NCBI RefSeq assembly: GCF_000519265.1
Contig: NZ_KI912608.1
Location: forward strand, 2,203,313 to 2,267,312
Source: Desulfonatronum lacustre DSM 10312
GTDB lineage: Bacteria; Desulfobacterota; Desulfovibrionia; Desulfovibrionales; Desulfonatronaceae
DNA length: 64,000 nucleotides
Direction of reading: 5' to 3'
In this document: positions 4,401 to 30,691 of the stretch, one piece after another
Position numbering within the stretch: the first letter of the stretch is position 1
Layout: every line of letters begins with the position of its first letter
The notes under the pieces: model-generated
Databases searched by the model: none
What the model was told of the DNA's origin: nothing
The model's input: only the letters and a program-made list of their open reading frames with translations
Program-made: the position numbers and the translations under genes

Positions 4401-5807
4401 ATGCCCGAAGGAATTCTTTGCAACAAGCAGCCCATTGTCACGGACGAGCAGCTCAAGCTGACGCTCGGGGACAAGAGTGGCAAGCAATACTACGCGGAAA
4501 TGGAACAACTGGAGGTGGATACGGACAAGCTCTGGTCCACGATCCAAAACACCATGAAATCCCGACTGAAAACATGGTTGAACATCTGCGCCAAATGCGG
4601 ACTCTGCGCGGACAGCTGTTTTCTCTATGAATGCAACGACAGGGATCCTCGCCAGGTCCCTTCGGCTAAAATCCACGCCACCTTGGGTGAGATCGTCAAG
4701 CGCAAGGGCAAGGTGGACAACGCTTTCATGCGCAAATGCATGGACATCGCCTGGAGCTGGTGTACCTGCTGCAACCGTTGCGGCCAGTTCTGCCCCCACG
4801 GCATCGACATGGGCGTGATGTTCTCCTACACGCGCGGCCTGCTCTTTTCCCAGGGATTCGTGCCTTGGGAACTGAAAATAGGTTCCGGGATGCACCGGGT
4901 GTACAAGGCCCAGATGGACGTGACCACCGAAGACTGGGTGGACACCTGCGAATGGATGGCTGACGAGAACTCCGAGGAGTGGCCGGGCCTGGAAATTCCC
5001 GTGGACAAGGAAGACGCGGACATCATGTACACCCTCAATGCCCGCGAAGCCAAACACTATCCGGAAGACATCGCTGAAGCTGCGATTTTATTCCATGTGG
5101 CCGGTGAAAACTGGACTGTACCTTCGGAAGGGTGGGAGCAAACCTCCCTGACAATTTTCGCCGGGGACTGGGAAGGCTGCAAGCAACAAGTTCTGCATGT
5201 CTATGACGCCATCGAACGTCTGCGCCCCAAGCGGGTCGTGGGCACGGAATGCGGCCACGCCCACCGGGCCACGGTCATCGAAGGGCCCTATTGGGCCGGA
5301 CGCGAAGATGGCCAACCCCCCAGACCCTACATCCATTATGTGGAATGGCTTGCGGAAATGCTGCGCACCGGGCGAATCAAAATCGACCCGGCCAAACGGA
5401 TCAAAGAACCGGTCACACTCCAGGACTCTTGCAATTACGTCCGCAATCAGGGTCTGAAAAACATCACCCGGGAAATCATGAGCTATCTTGTTGAACCCGG
5501 CTATTTCGTCGAAATGGCGCCGAACAAGGAATACAACTATTGTTGCGGCGGCGGCGGCGGATTTAACGGCATCGGCAAGTATCGCCCCCAGCGAAACATT
5601 GCTCTGCTTAAAAAGAGGGAGCAGATTTTAGCCACAGGGTGCAAGCTCGTGGTCGCGCCCTGCCACAATTGCTGGGACGCCATCCGCGACCTGGAGGAAG
5701 AATATCCCATAGGCATCCGCTGGAGCTTCCTCAAGCCGTTGGTGATCAAGATGATGATCGTCCCGGATCACCTCAAGCCCCAGGACGAGGAAGGCGAAGA
5801 GGAATAA
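4401..5807 (+). CDS. hmcF: Hmc complex cytoplasmic CCG-domain Fe-S subunit HmcF
   Basis: HdrD/DsrK-like cytoplasmic subunit, 468 residues, which receives electrons from HmcE and is thought to reduce a cytoplasmic disulfide-type or other acceptor. Two ferredoxin motifs ([11 protein letters not shown] and [11 protein letters not shown]...P) lie in the first third. The C-terminal half has an E-C-G-H motif near residue 284, then a canonical CCG domain (QDSC, 36 residues, CCGGGGG, about 36 residues, CHNC), predicted to bind a noncubane [4Fe-4S] cluster. The start at 4401 follows GAGGGAG. This gene is the reference for the UGA-containing paralog at 25629-26873, where the Cys of ECGH is replaced. 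Confidence 0.94.
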
Positions 5808-21441: not shown

Positions 21442-21581
21442 AAACGCTTCGAAACGACCGACAAGAGGGAGACTCAGTGATGTGGCCCTCACCGGCCTTG
21501 GGCAACGTGCACCAGTCTGGAGACGACGGTGAACGTCATCAACAACCAGGACACAATACAACCGTAACAACGGAGGAGTGC

Positions 21582-21983
21582 ATGCAAAGCAGAGTTCTTT
21601 TCATCTGTTGCCTTGCCCTGAGCGTCTTCATCGCCGGGACTATCGTCGCTCAAGAGGATCGATACTTCATCGAAAGCAAGGACTTTGAAAACCGGCAACG
21701 CCCCGGCGTGGAGTTCAACCATCTGTTACACTATGAAATCATCGACTGCATGGACTGTCATCATGATTACGTCTACGTCAACGAGAAAAAAGAAAACTAT
21801 TGGGACATGTTTTCCGGCAAAAACCATTGCTCCGACTGTCATACGGTGAGTGGAGAGGACGAGACGGGCGTTGGATTGATGCAGGCCTTTCACGAGCAGT
21901 GCGTCGGCTGTCACCAGGAATACCTCCGTCAGGACAAGACAACCGGATATATCATGTGCGGGGAATGTCACGTCAGGCCATAA
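21582..21983 (+). CDS. tmcA: Tetraheme cytochrome c3, Tmc complex subunit TmcA
   Basis: 133 residues with an N-terminal signal peptide (MQSRVLFICCLALSVFIAGTIVA) and four CxxCH motifs (CMDCHH, CSDCH, CVGCH, CGECH). It is acidic and Glu/Asp-rich, as known for TmcA (type II c3), the periplasmic electron acceptor of the Tmc membrane complex. All four motifs are of the CxxCH form. The start was set at 21582 because GGAGGAG precedes it and the signal peptide begins there. It heads the tmc genes. Confidence 0.9.
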   Translation: MQSRVLFICCLALSVFIAGTIVAQEDRYFIESKDFENRQRPGVEFNHLLHYEIIDCMDCHHDYVYVNEKKENYWDMFSGKNHCSDCHTVSGEDETGVGLMQAFHEQCVGCHQEYLRQDKTTGYIMCGECHVRP

Positions 21984-22089
21984 ACACGGATCATGACGTT
22001 ACGGTCCGACAGCATCCCGCCGAACGGCGGTGACGCCCGAGCATTTCCCGAACTTCGGCATTCCAACAGAAACAAAGTGAGGAGTGATT

Positions 22090-23364
22090 ATGCAAGATGC
22101 TGCATCATCCTGGGATTGGCAGCCGGGTGAGCGGGTCATTCTGGATTCGACCACCTGCGGAGTTGCGCACCAGTGGCAGGAGGAGCCCTACGTCGCTCCG
22201 GACGGCGAGAGTCTCGCCGCCGTGGTCCGCCTGGAAGACGACACGTTTTCCATGTGCGTAAACGGCAAAACCTGGGAGTCCGCTTTTGAAAAATTGTGGA
22301 AGCCCGGATTCTCCCCTGACGGACGCCTTGTGGTCATCGCCCAGCAGGACGGCGAATGGACTCTGGCCGTGGACGGAGAGCCTTGGGAGGAATTCTACGC
22401 GTATCTCTGGCATCCCTGCTTTTCAGCGGACGGCTCGGTCATCGCCGCGGCCATCCAGAACGACGGTCAATACGGCATGAGCGTGAACGGCGCGGTCTGG
22501 GCGAACCTGTTCGACAACGCCAACGAGTACGCCGTCAGCGCCGACGGGCAAGGCACGGCCGCCGTGATCCAGACCGAGGCCATGGCCGCCGCGGACCTGG
22601 TCGCCTTCCGTCGCGGGGTCTACACCGTGGCCGTGAACGGGGAGGCCTGGAAAAAAACGTTCATGAACGTCTGGACCCCGACCTTCGATTCCCAGGGCCG
22701 GAAAGTGGCCGCCCAGGTTCGCCTGAACCTTTATGAATACTCCATTGCCGTGGACGACGCGGTCTGGGGGCAAACCTACAACTGCGTTTGGGAACCACGC
22801 TTCAACCCGGCCACCGGCGCGGTGGTCGCCCCGGTGCGCATCGCCGGAGCCTGGGGCATGGCCCAGGACGGCAAGACCATCTGGGAACCGAACTTTTTTC
22901 AGTGCTGGCACCAGCAGTTCAGCGCGGACGGCAAAACCCTGGCCGCCATCGTGGCTCCCACCTTCGGCGCGTTCACCGTGGCCGTGAACGCCAAGCCCTG
23001 GTCCGCCACGTTTCCCGTTCTCTTGGATCTGACCCTGTCCGCGGACGGCAAACGGGCCGCGGTCCTGGCCAACAACAACAATATCGACTGGCGGATAGTC
23101 GTGGACGGCAGCCCATGGAGCGGAACCTACGACATGGCCTGGAAGCCGGTCTTCAGCGCCGACGGAACCCATGTCGCCGCCAAGGTGGAAAAAGCGGGCC
23201 GACATGCCGTGTTCGTGGACGGCAAGGCCTACAAGCGGGACTTTGACCGCGTCTGGGCCCCCGTCTTCAGCCCCGACGGCTCCAAGGTGCTCATCCGGGC
23301 CGTGGACAAGGGCGCGTTCGTGCGCATCGTCGCCACACTTTCGGACTTCTCGTCAAGGGGGTAG
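22090..23364 (+). CDS. tmcD: Tmc complex subunit TmcD, tryptophan-rich repeat protein
   Basis: 424 residues built of about nine repeats with a period near 45 residues, each having a turn like A-V-D-G-x-P-W and the strand pattern W-x-P-x-F-S-x-D-G-x-x-V-A-A. This suggests a beta-propeller-like fold. There is no signal peptide or membrane helix, so it should be cytoplasmic, as proposed for TmcD. Its position between tmcA and tmcC is unlike the A-B-C-D order I recall for D. vulgaris. The start at 22090 has GAGG upstream. Its function is not known beyond association with the Tmc complex. Confidence 0.85.
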   Translation: MQDAASSWDWQPGERVILDSTTCGVAHQWQEEPYVAPDGESLAAVVRLEDDTFSMCVNGKTWESAFEKLWKPGFSPDGRLVVIAQQDGEWTLAVDGEPWEEFYAYLWHPCFSADGSVIAAAIQNDGQYGMSVNGAVWANLFDNANEYAVSADGQGTAAVIQTEAMAAADLVAFRRGVYTVAVNGEAWKKTFMNVWTPTFDSQGRKVAAQVRLNLYEYSIAVDDAVWGQTYNCVWEPRFNPATGAVVAPVRIAGAWGMAQDGKTIWEPNFFQCWHQQFSADGKTLAAIVAPTFGAFTVAVNAKPWSATFPVLLDLTLSADGKRAAVLANNNNIDWRIVVDGSPWSGTYDMAWKPVFSADGTHVAAKVEKAGRHAVFVDGKAYKRDFDRVWAPVFSPDGSKVLIRAVDKGAFVRIVATLSDFSSRG

Positions 23365-23368
23365 CCAT

Positions 23369-24028
23369 ATGTACGGCCTATACAACTTCGTCACCGGACC
23401 CCTGGTCTGGGCGTCCTTCGCCATCTTCATTCTCGGGTCCATCTATCGCCTGGTTTCCATGTACGCCCTGGCCAAAAAGAAGGACGCCGTCTCCCTGGCC
23501 TACATGGACTGGAAATTCTCTTTCCGATCCATCTTCAACTGGTTGATTCCCTTCAACGCCCTGGGCTGGAAAAAGAACCCGGTCCTGACCGTGGTCACGT
23601 ACGTGTTCCACATCTGCCTGCTGGCCACGCCCATCCTGCTCTCGGCTCACATCATCCTGATCGAGGAATCCTGGGGCGTCAGCTGGTGGACTCTTTCCGA
23701 TTCCACCGCGGACATCATGACCATCCTGGTCATCGTTGCCTGCGCGTTTTTCGCCGGACGCCGCCTGTACCAGAAGGACGTCCGCTTTCTGACCACCGGC
23801 CAGGACTGGCTTATTCTGACCATCGCGGCCCTGCCCTTCATTACCGGCTTTCTGGCCTATCACCAGCTCTTCAACTACCAGGTGCTGATCATCGCCCACG
23901 TGCTGGCCGGCAACATCATGATCGCCGCGATTCCGTTCACCCGCCTCAGCCACATGTTCTTCTCGGTGTTCACCCGCGCTTACATGGGCTCCGAGTTCGG
24001 CGGGATCCGCAAAGCCAAAGACTGGTAG
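23369..24028 (+). CDS. tmcC: Tmc complex cytochrome-b-like membrane subunit TmcC
   Basis: 219-residue membrane protein with about five helices, paralogous to HmcE (start MYGLYNFVTGPLVW versus MYNFLTGPMVW). Conserved His residues occur in FHICLLATP, LSAHIILIE, AHVLAGN and LSHMFFSVF, candidates for b-heme ligands. It starts 4 bases after the tmcD stop and is followed by tmcB after 18 bases. It should carry electrons from periplasmic TmcA through the membrane to TmcB. Confidence 0.92.
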   Translation: MYGLYNFVTGPLVWASFAIFILGSIYRLVSMYALAKKKDAVSLAYMDWKFSFRSIFNWLIPFNALGWKKNPVLTVVTYVFHICLLATPILLSAHIILIEESWGVSWWTLSDSTADIMTILVIVACAFFAGRRLYQKDVRFLTTGQDWLILTIAALPFITGFLAYHQLFNYQVLIIAHVLAGNIMIAAIPFTRLSHMFFSVFTRAYMGSEFGGIRKAKDW

Positions 24029-24046
24029 GACCACAAGGAGAAACAT

Positions 24047-25366
24047 ATGGGCATTCAAGACAGACTGATCGAGGACGTGGGGCTCCGCGAAGGGGTTTCG
24101 CGTCTGACCGAAGACAAGATCCAGAAGACCGTCAACGCGGTGATTCAGGGCGAGACCGGGGCGCGACTCAAGGCCTACGCCGAGATCTGCCTGCGTTGCG
24201 GGATGTGCACCGAGGCCTGTCACTTCTATCTTTCCCACGACCAGGACCCCTCCTACGCCCCGGCGGCCAAGGTCAAACAGACCATCGGCACGCTGCTGGC
24301 CAACAGCGGGAGGGTCAGTCCGGATCAAATCTACAACATGGCTCAGATCGCCTACTCGGAATGCAACCTTTGTCGGCGCTGCGTTCATTTCTGTCCCGTG
24401 GGCGTGGACACGGCCTACATGATGATCACCATGCGCCGGATCTGTCACAAGCTGGGGGTCACCCCGCAGTACATTCAGGACACGGCCCACAGCCATTCCG
24501 CCACCTTCAACCAGATGTGGGTCAAGGACGATGAATGGACCGACACCTTGCAGTGGCAGGAGGACGAGGCCCGGGACGAGTTTCCGGATCTGCGCATTCC
24601 CTTGGACAAGGAAGGCGCGGACGTCTACTACTCGGTCATCGCTCCGGAGCCGAAATTCCGAACCCAGCTCATCTACCAGGCCGCGGCCATCCTGCACACG
24701 GCCAAAATCGACTGGACCATGCCCGCGGAGCCGGGCTGGGACAACTCGGACATGTGCATGTTCACCGGAGACTTCGAGATGATGGGTCGGCTGAAACGCA
24801 AGCACTTCGAGTCCGCCCAGAAGCTGAAGGTCAAGCGGATCGTCATGGGCGAATGCGGCCATGCCTTCCGCTCGGTTTACGACGTGGGCAACCGCTGGGC
24901 CGGATGGAAGCACTACCCCGTGCCCGTGGTCCACTCCGTGGAGTTTTTCTGGGAACTGCTGACTCAGGGCAAGATCAAGCTGGTCTCCAAATACCCCGGC
25001 CCGGTCACCCTCCAGGACCCCTGCAACATCGTCCGCGGCCGGGGGCTGGGCGACAAACTGCGGGAAGTGATCCGCATCCTGGTGGACGGCGAGATCGTGG
25101 AGACGGCCTCCAACCGGGAGCACAATCTGTGCTGCTCCGCCGGCGGCGGGGTGATCAACTGCGGCCCGCCCTTCAAGAACGCTCGGGTCGCGGCCTGCAA
25201 GGCCAAGGCGGACCAACTCCGGGCCACCGGCGTCAAGACCATCATCGCCCCCTGCCACAACTGCCACGGCGGCCTGGACGACACGGTGCATAAGTACGAG
25301 CTGGGCATGGAGATCAAGTTCCTGGGAGACATCATCTACCAATGCATGGAACGCCCGGAGACGTAA
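24047..25366 (+). CDS. tmcB: Tmc complex CCG-domain Fe-S subunit TmcB
   Basis: 439-residue HdrD/DsrK-like cytoplasmic subunit. Two [4Fe-4S] motifs (CLRCGMCTEAC, CNLCRRCVHFC) lie in the N-terminal half. The C-terminal half has the E-C-G-H motif and one canonical CCG domain (QDPC, CCSAGGG, CHNC). AAGGAG precedes the ATG. As the acceptor side of Tmc it is thought to act on a cytoplasmic disulfide carrier; DsrC is a candidate by analogy to DsrK, which is inference. It is a close paralog of HmcF and of the UGA-containing protein convergent to it. Confidence 0.93.
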   Translation: MGIQDRLIEDVGLREGVSRLTEDKIQKTVNAVIQGETGARLKAYAEICLRCGMCTEACHFYLSHDQDPSYAPAAKVKQTIGTLLANSGRVSPDQIYNMAQIAYSECNLCRRCVHFCPVGVDTAYMMITMRRICHKLGVTPQYIQDTAHSHSATFNQMWVKDDEWTDTLQWQEDEARDEFPDLRIPLDKEGADVYYSVIAPEPKFRTQLIYQAAAILHTAKIDWTMPAEPGWDNSDMCMFTGDFEMMGRLKRKHFESAQKLKVKRIVMGECGHAFRSVYDVGNRWAGWKHYPVPVVHSVEFFWELLTQGKIKLVSKYPGPVTLQDPCNIVRGRGLGDKLREVIRILVDGEIVETASNREHNLCCSAGGGVINCGPPFKNARVAACKAKADQLRATGVKTIIAPCHNCHGGLDDTVHKYELGMEIKFLGDIIYQCMERPET

Positions 25367-25452: not shown

Positions 25453-25550
25453 TGGATGGGCGTGACAATGCGGGGGGTAGCAGTAATTTCCTCACATTCC
25501 ATGAAATCGCGTCGACAAAACACCGAACAGGACGTCAACCTTCAACCAAA

Positions 25551-25595
25551 AAGCGCACGGCCCGGCAAGCTATCAGCTTGCCGGGCCGTGCGCTT
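25551..25595. terminator. Long perfect hairpin between convergent tmc and selenoprotein operons
   Basis: A 21-base-pair perfect inverted repeat with a three-base loop (ATC at 25572-25574), starting AAGCGCACGGCC. On the minus strand it is followed by TTTTTGG, so it should terminate the operon whose last codon is at 25629. It may serve both directions. Confidence 0.75.
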
Positions 25596-25628: not shown

Positions 25629-26873
25629 TCAATCCGCCTCGGGCACGTCAACCGCCTCCGCCAGATAGGCGCTGAACAGCTCGACCTTGGCGTCCAGGTC
25701 ATAGTTTTTGCAGGTTTCGTGAATTCCGTCCTCGCAGTTGTGGCAGGCCACCACGACCACCTGAGCCCCCGTGGCCCGGATGCAGTCGGCCTTGGCCTTG
25801 AGCGCGGCGATCTTGGCCTGCTTGTATTCCGGCATCAGCCCCTGACCGCCGCCGTTGCCGCAGCAGTACGTCGCGTTGCCGTGGGGGTGCATCTCCCGAA
25901 AGTCCGCGGCCACCACGGACATCAAATCCCTGGATTGCTGGAACATGCCAGCGTTGCGGATAAAATTGCAGGAATCCTGAAACGTGACCGGAGCTTCATG
26001 AAAACCGGATTTCAGCTTGAGCGTTCCGGCATGCAGGCACTCCGCCCAGACCTTGATCGGCGGCATGGCCTCGAAGGAAAATTTTCTGCCCAACCAGTAT
26101 GGCGCCTCGAACCCGAGGGCCTTCATGGAGTGCCCTCACTCCGCGGTGATCACCGCCTTGGCCTTGAGTTTTTCGGCCGTGTCCGCCACGTTGGCTGCCA
26201 GCCTGGACGCCTTGGCCACGTCCCCGGCGAAAAGCCCGAGGTTGGTCGAGTCCCAGGCCTTGGAGGACAGGGTGAAATCGATCCCAGTGGCGTTGTAAAG
26301 CTTGAGATAGTTGAAGAGATTTTGCGGATAGAACTTGATGTCCCGCGGATGAAAGGTCAACAGGTAGTCCGCGCCCTCTTTGTCCATGGGCGCCCGAGCC
26401 CCGGGCATTTCCTCCTGAAGCTCCTCCAGTTGCCACTCCACGGTTTCCAGAAAATCTTCCTCGGTCACCCCGAGGTTGTTGCCGAATTCCAGGGCGTTCT
26501 CCAGCCCCTTGGCCAGACCGGGCGGAGTCAGACCCATGGCCACGGCCACGCCCCGTGCCGCGTGGACCAGGGAGGCGATGCCGATGCCGTGCGGGCAGTA
26601 CATGGTGCAGCGCTGGCACATGGTGCAGGTGCCGTAGCAGACGTCGCGCAACGCTTCGAGCACAGCGGCGTCCACTCGACCGCGCCTCTTGTACAGGTTC
26701 AGCAGCGGCTTGATGCGGTAAGCCGGAACATGCTCCGGCCTGGGATTGGATGCGTAGTAATGGCACCCCTCCGCGCACATCCCGCACCGGGAACAAATGG
26801 ACAGCCACATTTCCAGCCGTGCTCCGGCCTTGTCGGCCAGGACGCGGGAAAGGGCCCGAGAATCGATGCTCAT
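25629..26873 (-). CDS. CCG-domain Fe-S protein with in-frame UGA (selenocysteine candidate)
   Basis: HmcF/TmcB/HdrD-like cytoplasmic protein, 414 residues if UGA at 26138-26136 is read as selenocysteine (residue 246). Two [4Fe-4S] motifs are at the N-terminus (CSRCGMCAEGC, CTMCQRCTMYC). After the UGA the frame continues in family sequence: QDSC, CCGNGGG and CHNC of the CCG domain. The UGA stands exactly at the Cys of the E-C-G-H motif conserved in HmcF and TmcB (ITAE-U-GHSMK). A SECIS-like hairpin follows. The start at 26873 has GAGGAG upstream, 25 bases after the membrane subunit. Without readthrough it would be two broken pieces. Confidence in the CDS is high, in selenocysteine fairly high. 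Confidence 0.85.
26101..26138 (-). promoter_or_regulatory. Bacterial SECIS-like element at the in-frame UGA
   Basis: Directly 3' of the UGA (26138-26136) the mRNA can fold as left arm GGCCCUCG, four-base loop GGUU, right arm CGAGGCGCC with one bulged C: eight pairs. The loop begins 22 nucleotides after the UGA, within the 16-37 range known for bacterial SECIS, and carries the GGU that SelB recognises. An alternative six-pair stem (GAGGGC / GCCCUC) would include the UGA itself. Confidence 0.7.
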
Positions 26874-26898: not shown

Positions 26899-27555
26899 TC
26901 ACCATGCCCCCACCCGACGTTTTCCGAAATCGCTGCCCGTGGCCGCGCGGGAGACAAAAAAGAGCGCCATGTGCGAAAGCTTGGTGAACGGAATGAGCAT
27001 CAGGAGAGTGTTGGCGCTAAGCACATGCAAAGTCAGCATCAGCGGATAATCGCCCCACTGCCGGTGCGCGGCCAGCCCGGTGGCCAGGGGCAGGGCGACC
27101 AGCAACAGGATCAGCAGATCCTTGGGTTCCGTCAGCCCGCGCAACGCCGGATGGAATAACCGTTTCGCGGCCAAAAACGCCAGGGCGGCCAGGGCGATGA
27201 TGGTCAATCCATCGGCCCAGACATCGGGGATCGTCGGCCAGGACACGCCCCAGCTTTGCTCCAGCATGATCACGTGGGCCGAGAGAAAAAAGGCCACCAC
27301 GAGCAGGGGGATATGCAGCGCGAATCCGGCTGCCGTGGACCAGGGGCTGCTTTTAGCTGTCCGGTTCAGCGGCAGAAGATAATGCGCCAGTGAGCCCACG
27401 GCCCAGACTGTCTGAAAATCCGAAGGCAGGCCTTTGCTCGCGGCAACGGCCTTGCGGCGATAGCGGATCAGACGATAGCTCAGGCCCGCGATACATACCG
27501 TAAACGCCAGCCAGACCATCGGTCCCGCGGCAAAATTGTAGACGACATAAATCAA
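26899..27555 (-). CDS. Cytochrome-b-like membrane subunit paired with the selenoprotein
   Basis: 218-residue membrane protein, third paralog of HmcE and TmcC. It begins LIYVVYNFAAGPMVW and has about five helices with His residues in GFALHIPLLV, LSAHVIML, TLHVLSAN and LSHMALFF. I place the start at a TTG (27555-27553) because GGAGG stands six bases before it; an upstream extension of the open frame has no family sequence. It is co-transcribed with the CCG selenoprotein 25 bases downstream. No multiheme cytochrome or NrfD-type gene lies beside this pair, so its electron donor is probably the soluble c3 pool or quinol. Confidence 0.85.
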   Translation of the reverse strand: MIYVVYNFAAGPMVWLAFTVCIAGLSYRLIRYRRKAVAASKGLPSDFQTVWAVGSLAHYLLPLNRTAKSSPWSTAAGFALHIPLLVVAFFLSAHVIMLEQSWGVSWPTIPDVWADGLTIIALAALAFLAAKRLFHPALRGLTEPKDLLILLLVALPLATGLAAHRQWGDYPLMLTLHVLSANTLLMLIPFTKLSHMALFFVSRAATGSDFGKRRVGAW

Positions 27556-27858
27556 GGTTTTCCTCCAACACCGTCGCGAACGTGACAGGCTCCGCACATC
27601 ATCGGGTGCCGTCAGGGCATCCGATCCGTATCGGGAAAGGCGTCCGTTTGGCCGGTGGCACGTTATCGAAGACCCATTGGGGTGTCCAGTATGCCTGCGT
27701 GAGCTTTCAAGTGGTGTTTCCTGAACGCGGAATAATTCCTTGACTTGCCTGGATTCGGAACCTACACCCGAAACCAGTGTCAAGAACGAAGGTCCCTGCG
27801 AGATGGAGACTTCCGTATCCAGTTCCCGACAAACGTCGCGACGAATGGGAGATGCATC
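27556..27858. other. Divergent promoter region between the selenoprotein operon and an Rrf2 gene
   Basis: About 300 bases separating two divergent start codons. It holds a small perfect palindrome GGAATAATTCC (27729-27739), followed at once by TTGACT, which may be a -35 element for the Rrf2 gene. The layout suggests that the Rrf2 protein at 27859 controls the selenoprotein pair, but no operator can be proved by eye. Confidence 0.4.
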
Positions 27859-29321: not shown

Positions 29322-29452
29322 ACAACCGCCAAAGCAACTGCCGACACACCGAGGCGATAACGCATTCACAAGTCGTTTTCGACTTTTTGAACACGGACCG
29401 TTCCACGGGGATCCATCAAAAATCATAAACCTTTCAACAGGAGATGCTCGTC

Positions 29453-30691
29453 ATGAAAAAATTGCTCATTCTTGGTTCCGGCTCCGGTGGAACCATGGTT
29501 GCCACGAAGATGCGCGAAAAGCTTCCGGAAAAGGAGTGGGAGATCACGGTCATCGACCGCGATTGGGAACACCACTACCAGGCCGGATGGCTCTTCGTCC
29601 CCTTCGGCGTCTATACCCTGGACGATTGCAAGAAGCCCAAGGCCGACTTCATTCCCAAGGGCGTCAAGCTGGTCATGGATTCCATCGAGTCCATCGACCC
29701 GGCGAAAAAGGTCGTCACATGCAAGAACGGCAAGTACACCTACGACTGGGTGGTCGTGGCCACGGGGTGTCGCATCGCGCCGGAAGAAGTTGAAGGCATG
29801 ATGGACGACTGGGGCGGAAACATCCAGAACTTCTACACTCCGGACGGCGCGGTGGCTCTGTTCAAGAAGTGGAAGAACATGAAGGAAGGGCGCATCGTCC
29901 ATCATATTTCCGAGATGCCCATCAAATGTCCGGTAGCCCCGTTGGAGTTCGTCTACCTCGCCGACTGGTTCTTCACCATCAACGGCGTGCGTGAGAACAT
30001 CGAAATCGAGCTGGTCACCCCCCTCACCGGCGCCTTCACCAAGCCCGTGGCCGCACAGATCCTGGGCAAGGTCTGCGAGGACAAGAACATCAAGGTCACG
30101 CCGAACTTCGTGGTGGACAACGTCAACGTGGGTAAGAAGGCCATTGAATCCGTCTCCGGCGAAGAAGTGCCCTACGACCTGCTGGTGGCCATTCCCCCAA
30201 ACTTCGGCCAGCAGGTGATCATTGATTCAGGTATGGGCGACGCCATGGGCTACGTGGATACGGACAAGCACACGTTGAAGGCCAAGAACTTCGAAAACAT
30301 GTACGTCATCGGCGACGCCACCAACGTACCCACCTCCAAGGCCGGCAGCGTGGCCCACTACCAGTCCGACATCGTGGTGGATAACCTGATCCGGGAAATG
30401 GAAGGCGAGGAACCGCGTCCGGACTTTGACGGCCACTCCACCTGCTTCATCGTCTCCGGGTACGAGCAGGCCTATCTGATCGACTTCAACTACGAGGTCC
30501 AGCCGCTTCCGGGCAAGTACCCCTTCCCCGGGGTCGGCCCGTTCTCCCTGCTCGGCGAATCGCACATGAACTACTGGGGCAAGATGATGTTCAAGTGGGT
30601 CTATTTCGACCTGATGCTCAAGGGCAGTGAACTGCCCCTGGAGCCGCAGATGTTCATGGCCGGAAAAATGCGCCACTTGGCCAAAGCCTAA
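29453..30691 (+). CDS. Sulfide:quinone oxidoreductase-like flavoprotein
   Basis: 412-residue FAD protein of the SQR/FCSD family. It has an N-terminal FAD fold (LLILGSGSGGTMVA), a Cys at ATGCRIAP, the family motif Cys-Pro-x-Ala-Pro-x-Glu in IKCPVAPLEF, the second FAD block MYVIGDATNVP, and a third Cys in STCFIV. Three cysteines in these places are those used by SQRs to bind sulfide/polysulfide. In a sulfate reducer it could oxidise sulfide or run towards polysulfide reduction. Start at 29453 with CAGGAG. The DUF1641 gene follows after 18 bases. Confidence 0.8.
   Translation: MKKLLILGSGSGGTMVATKMREKLPEKEWEITVIDRDWEHHYQAGWLFVPFGVYTLDDCKKPKADFIPKGVKLVMDSIESIDPAKKVVTCKNGKYTYDWVVVATGCRIAPEEVEGMMDDWGGNIQNFYTPDGAVALFKKWKNMKEGRIVHHISEMPIKCPVAPLEFVYLADWFFTINGVRENIEIELVTPLTGAFTKPVAAQILGKVCEDKNIKVTPNFVVDNVNVGKKAIESVSGEEVPYDLLVAIPPNFGQQVIIDSGMGDAMGYVDTDKHTLKAKNFENMYVIGDATNVPTSKAGSVAHYQSDIVVDNLIREMEGEEPRPDFDGHSTCFIVSGYEQAYLIDFNYEVQPLPGKYPFPGVGPFSLLGESHMNYWGKMMFKWVYFDLMLKGSELPLEPQMFMAGKMRHLAKA

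Follow-up and report, generated by a model that had tools for sequence, protein, structure and literature searches.

The window analysed here, a stretch of 64,000 nucleotides from Desulfonatronum lacustre DSM 10312, holds an open reading frame on its minus strand that runs from an ATG at 26873, preceded by an AGGAG ribosome site, to a terminal UGA at 25631-25629 (Table 1). Its only interruption is another UGA, at 26138-26136. An earlier note on this DNA recognized that single interruption, and rightly placed it at the Cys of the E-C-G-H motif of HmcF and TmcB: the aligned codon is TGC in both HmcF (4401, GTECGHAHR) and TmcB (24047, MGECGHAFR) of the same window. The extent it gave for the gene, 26101-26873, was too short, as the frame continues to 25629 and, read through the UGA, encodes a full-length protein of 414 residues, named SecF in this report. 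The canonical TmcB is a Cys-containing paralog of SecF, and since the window already holds Hmc and Tmc genes, the SecF module is an additional paralog.

Table 1. Features at and around the SecF locus, in positions of the window
Feature	Positions	Strand	Remarks
SecF, predicted Sec-containing CCG/4Fe-4S protein	25629..26873	minus	414 aa reading through UGA
In-frame UGA, predicted Sec246 of E-U/C-G-H	26136..26138	minus	codon 246
SECIS-type hairpin, GGC-CCUCG-GGUU-CGAGG-(C)-GCC	26101..26121	minus	loop 26113-26110
TmcC/HmcE-like cytochrome b (Nitrate_red_gam)	26899..27558	minus	TTG start; same operon, upstream
Intrinsic terminator past SecF stop	25548..25593	minus	18-bp stem, UGAUA loop, U5; found by eye
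Canonical Tmc operon (TmcA, D, C, B)	21477..25366	plus	convergent with Sec operon
Canonical HmcF, Cys paralog (GTECGHAHR)	4401..5807	plus	
Type III sulfide:quinone reductase (SQR), Cys (HSTC) form	29444..30691	plus	adjoins Sec operon

By Pfam, SecF contains 4Fe-4S dicluster and CCG domains. It has two cubane cluster motifs (C27, C30, C33, C37 and C83, C86, C89, C93) and a single complete CCG set (C302, C337, C338, C377, C380). A second complete CCG set, as found in HdrB or HdrD with their two noncubane clusters, is absent, the first site having shrunk to ECGH. The best NCBIfam models are HmcF (NF045711, 359.6 bits against a curated cut-off of 750), TmcB (NF045724, 297.5 against 735) and DsrK (NF045796, 185.1 against 400), each reached at less than half of its cut-off. 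As judged by these scores, SecF is related to all three proteins, yet is none of them.

The gene for the cytochrome b ends 25 nt before the ATG of SecF, and its product scores 198.9 of the 240 bits asked by the TmcC model. A homolog lies immediately upstream in all 22 contexts examined. In six of these (L106, L107, L109, L110, L118 and L054) a TmcA-like gene precedes the cytochrome b gene, and in five of the six, four heme motifs were counted. Neighboring genes were identified by homology and by scans for CxxCH; a greedy map of longest open reading frames proved unreliable in these GC-rich genomes and was dropped. The complete set of TmcA, TmcB, TmcC and TmcD is not found in the Sec operon, which consists at this locus of just the TmcC-like gene and SecF; TmcD is not part of it, nor is DsrC or another substrate gene linked to it. 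Because a TmcC-like cytochrome b adjoins SecF and a TmcA-like gene accompanies it in six relatives, the operon is best read, from its gene content, as a transmembrane thiol-redox module like those of Tmc, Hmc and DsrMK.

SecF is almost certainly a selenoprotein whose synthesis depends on SelB to read through the one UGA, and the comparative evidence for this comes from several directions. The selenium machinery is present: selA, selB, selD and one tRNA-Sec with a UCA anticodon all lie on the single 3.76-Mb contig, so the search of the genome that the earlier note had called for found all four genes. (The gene for SelD, G000:C1:15288-16199, L101, is itself a selenoprotein gene with one in-frame TGA.) SecF orthologs were found in 18 of the 348 genomes of the class searched, the full-length ones 56-95% identical and one a fragment of 63% identity. 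Codon 246 is TGA in 18 of 18 and a Cys codon in none. UGA is present also in L054 and L055, both of which may duplicate genomes already counted. Thus close relatives lacking the UGA and the hairpin, which the earlier note had named as grounds for abandoning its claim, did not turn up; every ortholog keeps both, and in the wider collection of homologs the UGA aligns with the Cys of relatives. The residues E, C or U, G and H are invariant across 57 of 57 aligned homologs. One incomplete assembly (L067, G244:C175) has an extra in-frame TAG at residue 55, at the position of Lys55, through error or otherwise.

It might be supposed that the UGA is a true stop, separating two proteins, since a reading frame with an ATG start, at 26126, opens four codons beyond it. 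That ATG is not conserved among orthologs, however, being ATC or CTC in several of them, and re-initiation there was rejected on this ground. Codon 246 is never UAA or UAG within the clade, and the covariation within the hairpin, described below, counts against a true stop as well. In nine comparisons, purifying selection was alike on either side, dN/dS being 0.054-0.355 after the UGA as compared to 0.069-0.375 before it, and translation ending at the UGA would not give so close a parallel. Two proteins are hardly credible, then, and a sequencing error or a pseudogene is even less so, for 18 genomes, each assembled separately, share the identical UGA, and the coding sequence is still under selection both before and after it.

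The SECIS-type hairpin has eight pairs, a single bulged C and GGUU in the loop. The earlier note had described the pairs and the loop as they are, but its distance of 22 nt from the UGA is that to the loop; the stem begins at 14 nt. The folding energy of the window sequence taken alone is not unusual (z of -0.15 to -1.49), so the hairpin is by itself a weak proof, and comparative evidence was used instead: a fixed position, a G as the first or second base of the loop, and base changes that compensate each other. The orthologs have the forms CCUCG-GGUU-CGAGG, CCUCA-AGUU-UGAGG and CCUCA-GGUU-UGAGG. In six of 12 distinct ortholog sequences the closing pair has changed at both of its bases, G-C in some and A-U in others, the partner base being the silent third position of a Phe codon. 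In a second group of UGA sequences, the stem again has eight pairs, the loop has three bases, four pairs change on both sides, and shifting the register abolishes pairing. With pairs counted separately for the two loop registers, GGUU and GGU, at least four of five pairs plus a G as first or second loop base are found at the fixed position in 24 of 24 UGA members, while more than three pairs are found there in only two of 51 Cys members. These two, L079 (about 2209-2262) and L056 (6754-6807), each have a hairpin resembling a SECIS where one would be expected, and are possibly relics of a change from Sec to Cys.

A tree built with a quick method gathers the orthologs, all with Sec, in a single clade of 17 rows with full support. 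Further UGA-bearing groups are L033/L035/L036/L045/L071/L096 and L073/L075/L076, and the nearest sisters of the latter (L077 and L078) carry TGC. The tree requires at least five changes between Sec and Cys, and well-supported branches compel four of these. A second UGA clade (L119, L124) has its genes in the order TmcC-like, Sec-type TmcB/HmcF-like, TmcA-like, apparently an independent Tmc-like operon with predicted Sec.

The same D. lacustre genome has a second, distant gene of the CCG selenoprotein type (G000:C1:2859720-2861027; L004, L125), with NTE-U-GHE and a hairpin. Proteins of the L004 type stand alone, and relatives are found in 92 of 345 genomes of the class, mostly with TGA. I think it probable that this type is the 'GlpC' selenoprotein reported for Desulfovibrio vulgaris. 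Tandem pairs of the L004 type occur at G237:C5:229156-231755 and G292:C12:480810-483405 and in G290, G291 and G338, one copy with TGA and its neighbor without, presumably natural adjacent Sec and Cys paralogs.

What might the selenium do? The AlphaFold (AF2) model of SecF (pLDDT 93.9, pTM 0.91) finds as its closest fold in the PDB the mycobacterial EtfD (9ojn; E 6e-16, TMq 0.75), followed by LutA and HdrB, though sequence identity with EtfD is low (18%). In EtfD, Cys581 is a ligand of a linear cluster, D1, together with Cys503, 538 and 584, while His583 and five Cys hold a noncubane cluster, D2, which the His ligand is said to render non-catalytic (PMC13083937). A profile alignment places E-U246-G-H248 of SecF on T-C581-P-H583 of EtfD and C302, C337, C338, C377 and C380 on Cys637, 672, 673, 709 and 712. 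All five Cys of D2 are thus conserved, Sec246 stands two residues before the His aligned to a noncubane 4Fe-4S ligand, and the equivalents of Cys503, 538 and 584 in D1 are not Cys. SecF is thus unable to build D1, and Sec246 is expected to remain a free selenol, close to a noncubane cluster that has a His ligand. The earlier note's idea of a selenol near that cluster would fit the alignment with EtfD.

I propose that SecF and the cytochrome b form a minimal Tmc-like complex in which Sec246 is reactive. Menaquinol would be the redox partner of the cytochrome b, or in some genomes a tetraheme c3 of the periplasm. Electrons would then travel by way of the two cubane clusters to a noncubane [4Fe-4S] cluster, with C302, C337, C338, C377, C380 and His248 as its ligands. 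Beside it, at the position of the EtfD D1 ligand, Sec246 is most likely a free selenolate, since the other D1 ligands are missing. It would attack its substrate or relay electrons to it, the substrate being a disulfide or persulfide in the cytoplasm or a trisulfide like that of DsrC. According to current thinking, DsrC in the cytoplasm is reduced by Tmc and DsrMKJOP (PMC10553843). A thiol-redox role is suggested by the invariant ECGH together with the predicted free selenol, and Sec would make the disulfide step faster and more reversible than does the Cys of the paralogs. Taken whole, this is the best explanation available and rather probable; the mechanism within it I hold with no more than even confidence.

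A view opposed to this proposal is that Sec246 is a permanent Fe-S ligand or a tuner of the noncubane cluster's redox potential, SecF passing electrons on as EtfD does with no disulfide chemistry at all. Position 246 does align with a cluster ligand of EtfD, Cys581, and His248 with the ligand to which the lack of catalysis at D2 is ascribed, so that Sec could simply tune electron transfer. Against this view, the other D1 ligands are missing, and Sec in other proteins serves mostly at reactive sites, not as a structural Fe-S ligand. On balance I consider that view somewhat unlikely. A more specific form of the proposal is also unlikely as it stands: that this is a Tmc-like transmembrane complex specialized for, and dependent on, selenium, that catalysis would fall to the selenol beside the His-ligated noncubane cluster and not to the cluster iron, that its substrate would be a persulfide or of the DsrC type, and that in DsrK, TmcB and HmcF the invariant Cys would have the equivalent function.

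The neighborhood offers yet another thought, that the Sec module handles sulfide with the type III SQR beside it, in the reduction or oxidation of poly- or persulfide rather than through DsrC. In the genus, and in G024 from one other family, the Sec operon has type III SQR and Rrf2-type regulators as neighbors, and type III SQR is present in 15 of 18 SecF genomes as against 67 of 327 others, a difference (Fisher p 7e-8) that serves as a lead only, the genomes being phylogenetically dependent. Outside of six loci, however, the SQR and Sec genes are not adjacent, and most genomes with SQR have no Sec module. A partnership with SQR is thus doubtful, although the proximity of the two could point to sulfide oxidation in place of the disulfide reduction proposed above. 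The SQR at this locus matches NCBI's 'selenoprotein subtype' model, with HSTC where the published motif is HxxU, and no in-frame stop occurs in type III SQR among the matches listed in the class.

Sec at U-G-H in Fe-S oxidoreductase-like proteins (GlpC/COG0247/PTHR43551) has been listed as a predicted selenoprotein family since 2006 (PMC1794560, PMC13188914). SecF has the defining feature of that family, a U-G-H motif in a deltaproteobacterial CCG-domain protein. The family is listed without subtypes, and its reference, WP_174406253.1, may or may not belong to the SecF subfamily; within the class, the UGH protein met most often is the stand-alone distant homolog, unlike SecF with its cytochrome b. 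With TmcB, HmcF and DsrK, SecF shares domain order, cluster motifs, the ECGH site and a cytochrome b partner, but Sec replaces Cys, the operon has no TmcD, and a TmcA-like gene is present in only some relatives. EtfD shares the D2 ligands, His included; unlike SecF it has a linear [3Fe-4S] cluster D1, a fused membrane domain and no Sec. By the matched passages of its genome paper, Desulfobacterium autotrophicum HRM2 has two Sec-containing HdrD-type CCG proteins, HdrD4 and HdrF2, annotated as selenoproteins (PMC2702500), HdrF2 also with transmembrane segments; HdrF is there a fused membrane protein, while the cytochrome b of SecF is a separate TmcC-like subunit.

The earlier note knew of no HmcF/TmcB-type module with Sec. 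That seems to hold for the subfamily: literature searches found no HmcF or DsrK with selenocysteine, the matched passages of genome papers report no Sec TmcB, and those of the literature searched give no description of a cytochrome-b-linked, TmcB/HmcF-like, all-Sec subfamily. It does not hold for Sec at the UGH site as such, already a listed family. SecF and its orthologs appear, then, to be a separate, undescribed, all-Sec and cytochrome-b-linked subfamily, a new branch of a known kind.

Genes like SecF are split or truncated by standard gene calling. The invariant ECGH Cys of DsrK, TmcB and HmcF is not known to have an established role, nor is there a settled account of how these proteins reduce their cytoplasmic disulfide. 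The natural swap of Cys for Sec at ECGH, constant in one clade and exchanged with Cys in its sisters, makes it likely that the site is chemically reactive, and Sec246 offers a spectroscopic and kinetic handle on it, through 77Se and Sec-to-Cys mutants.
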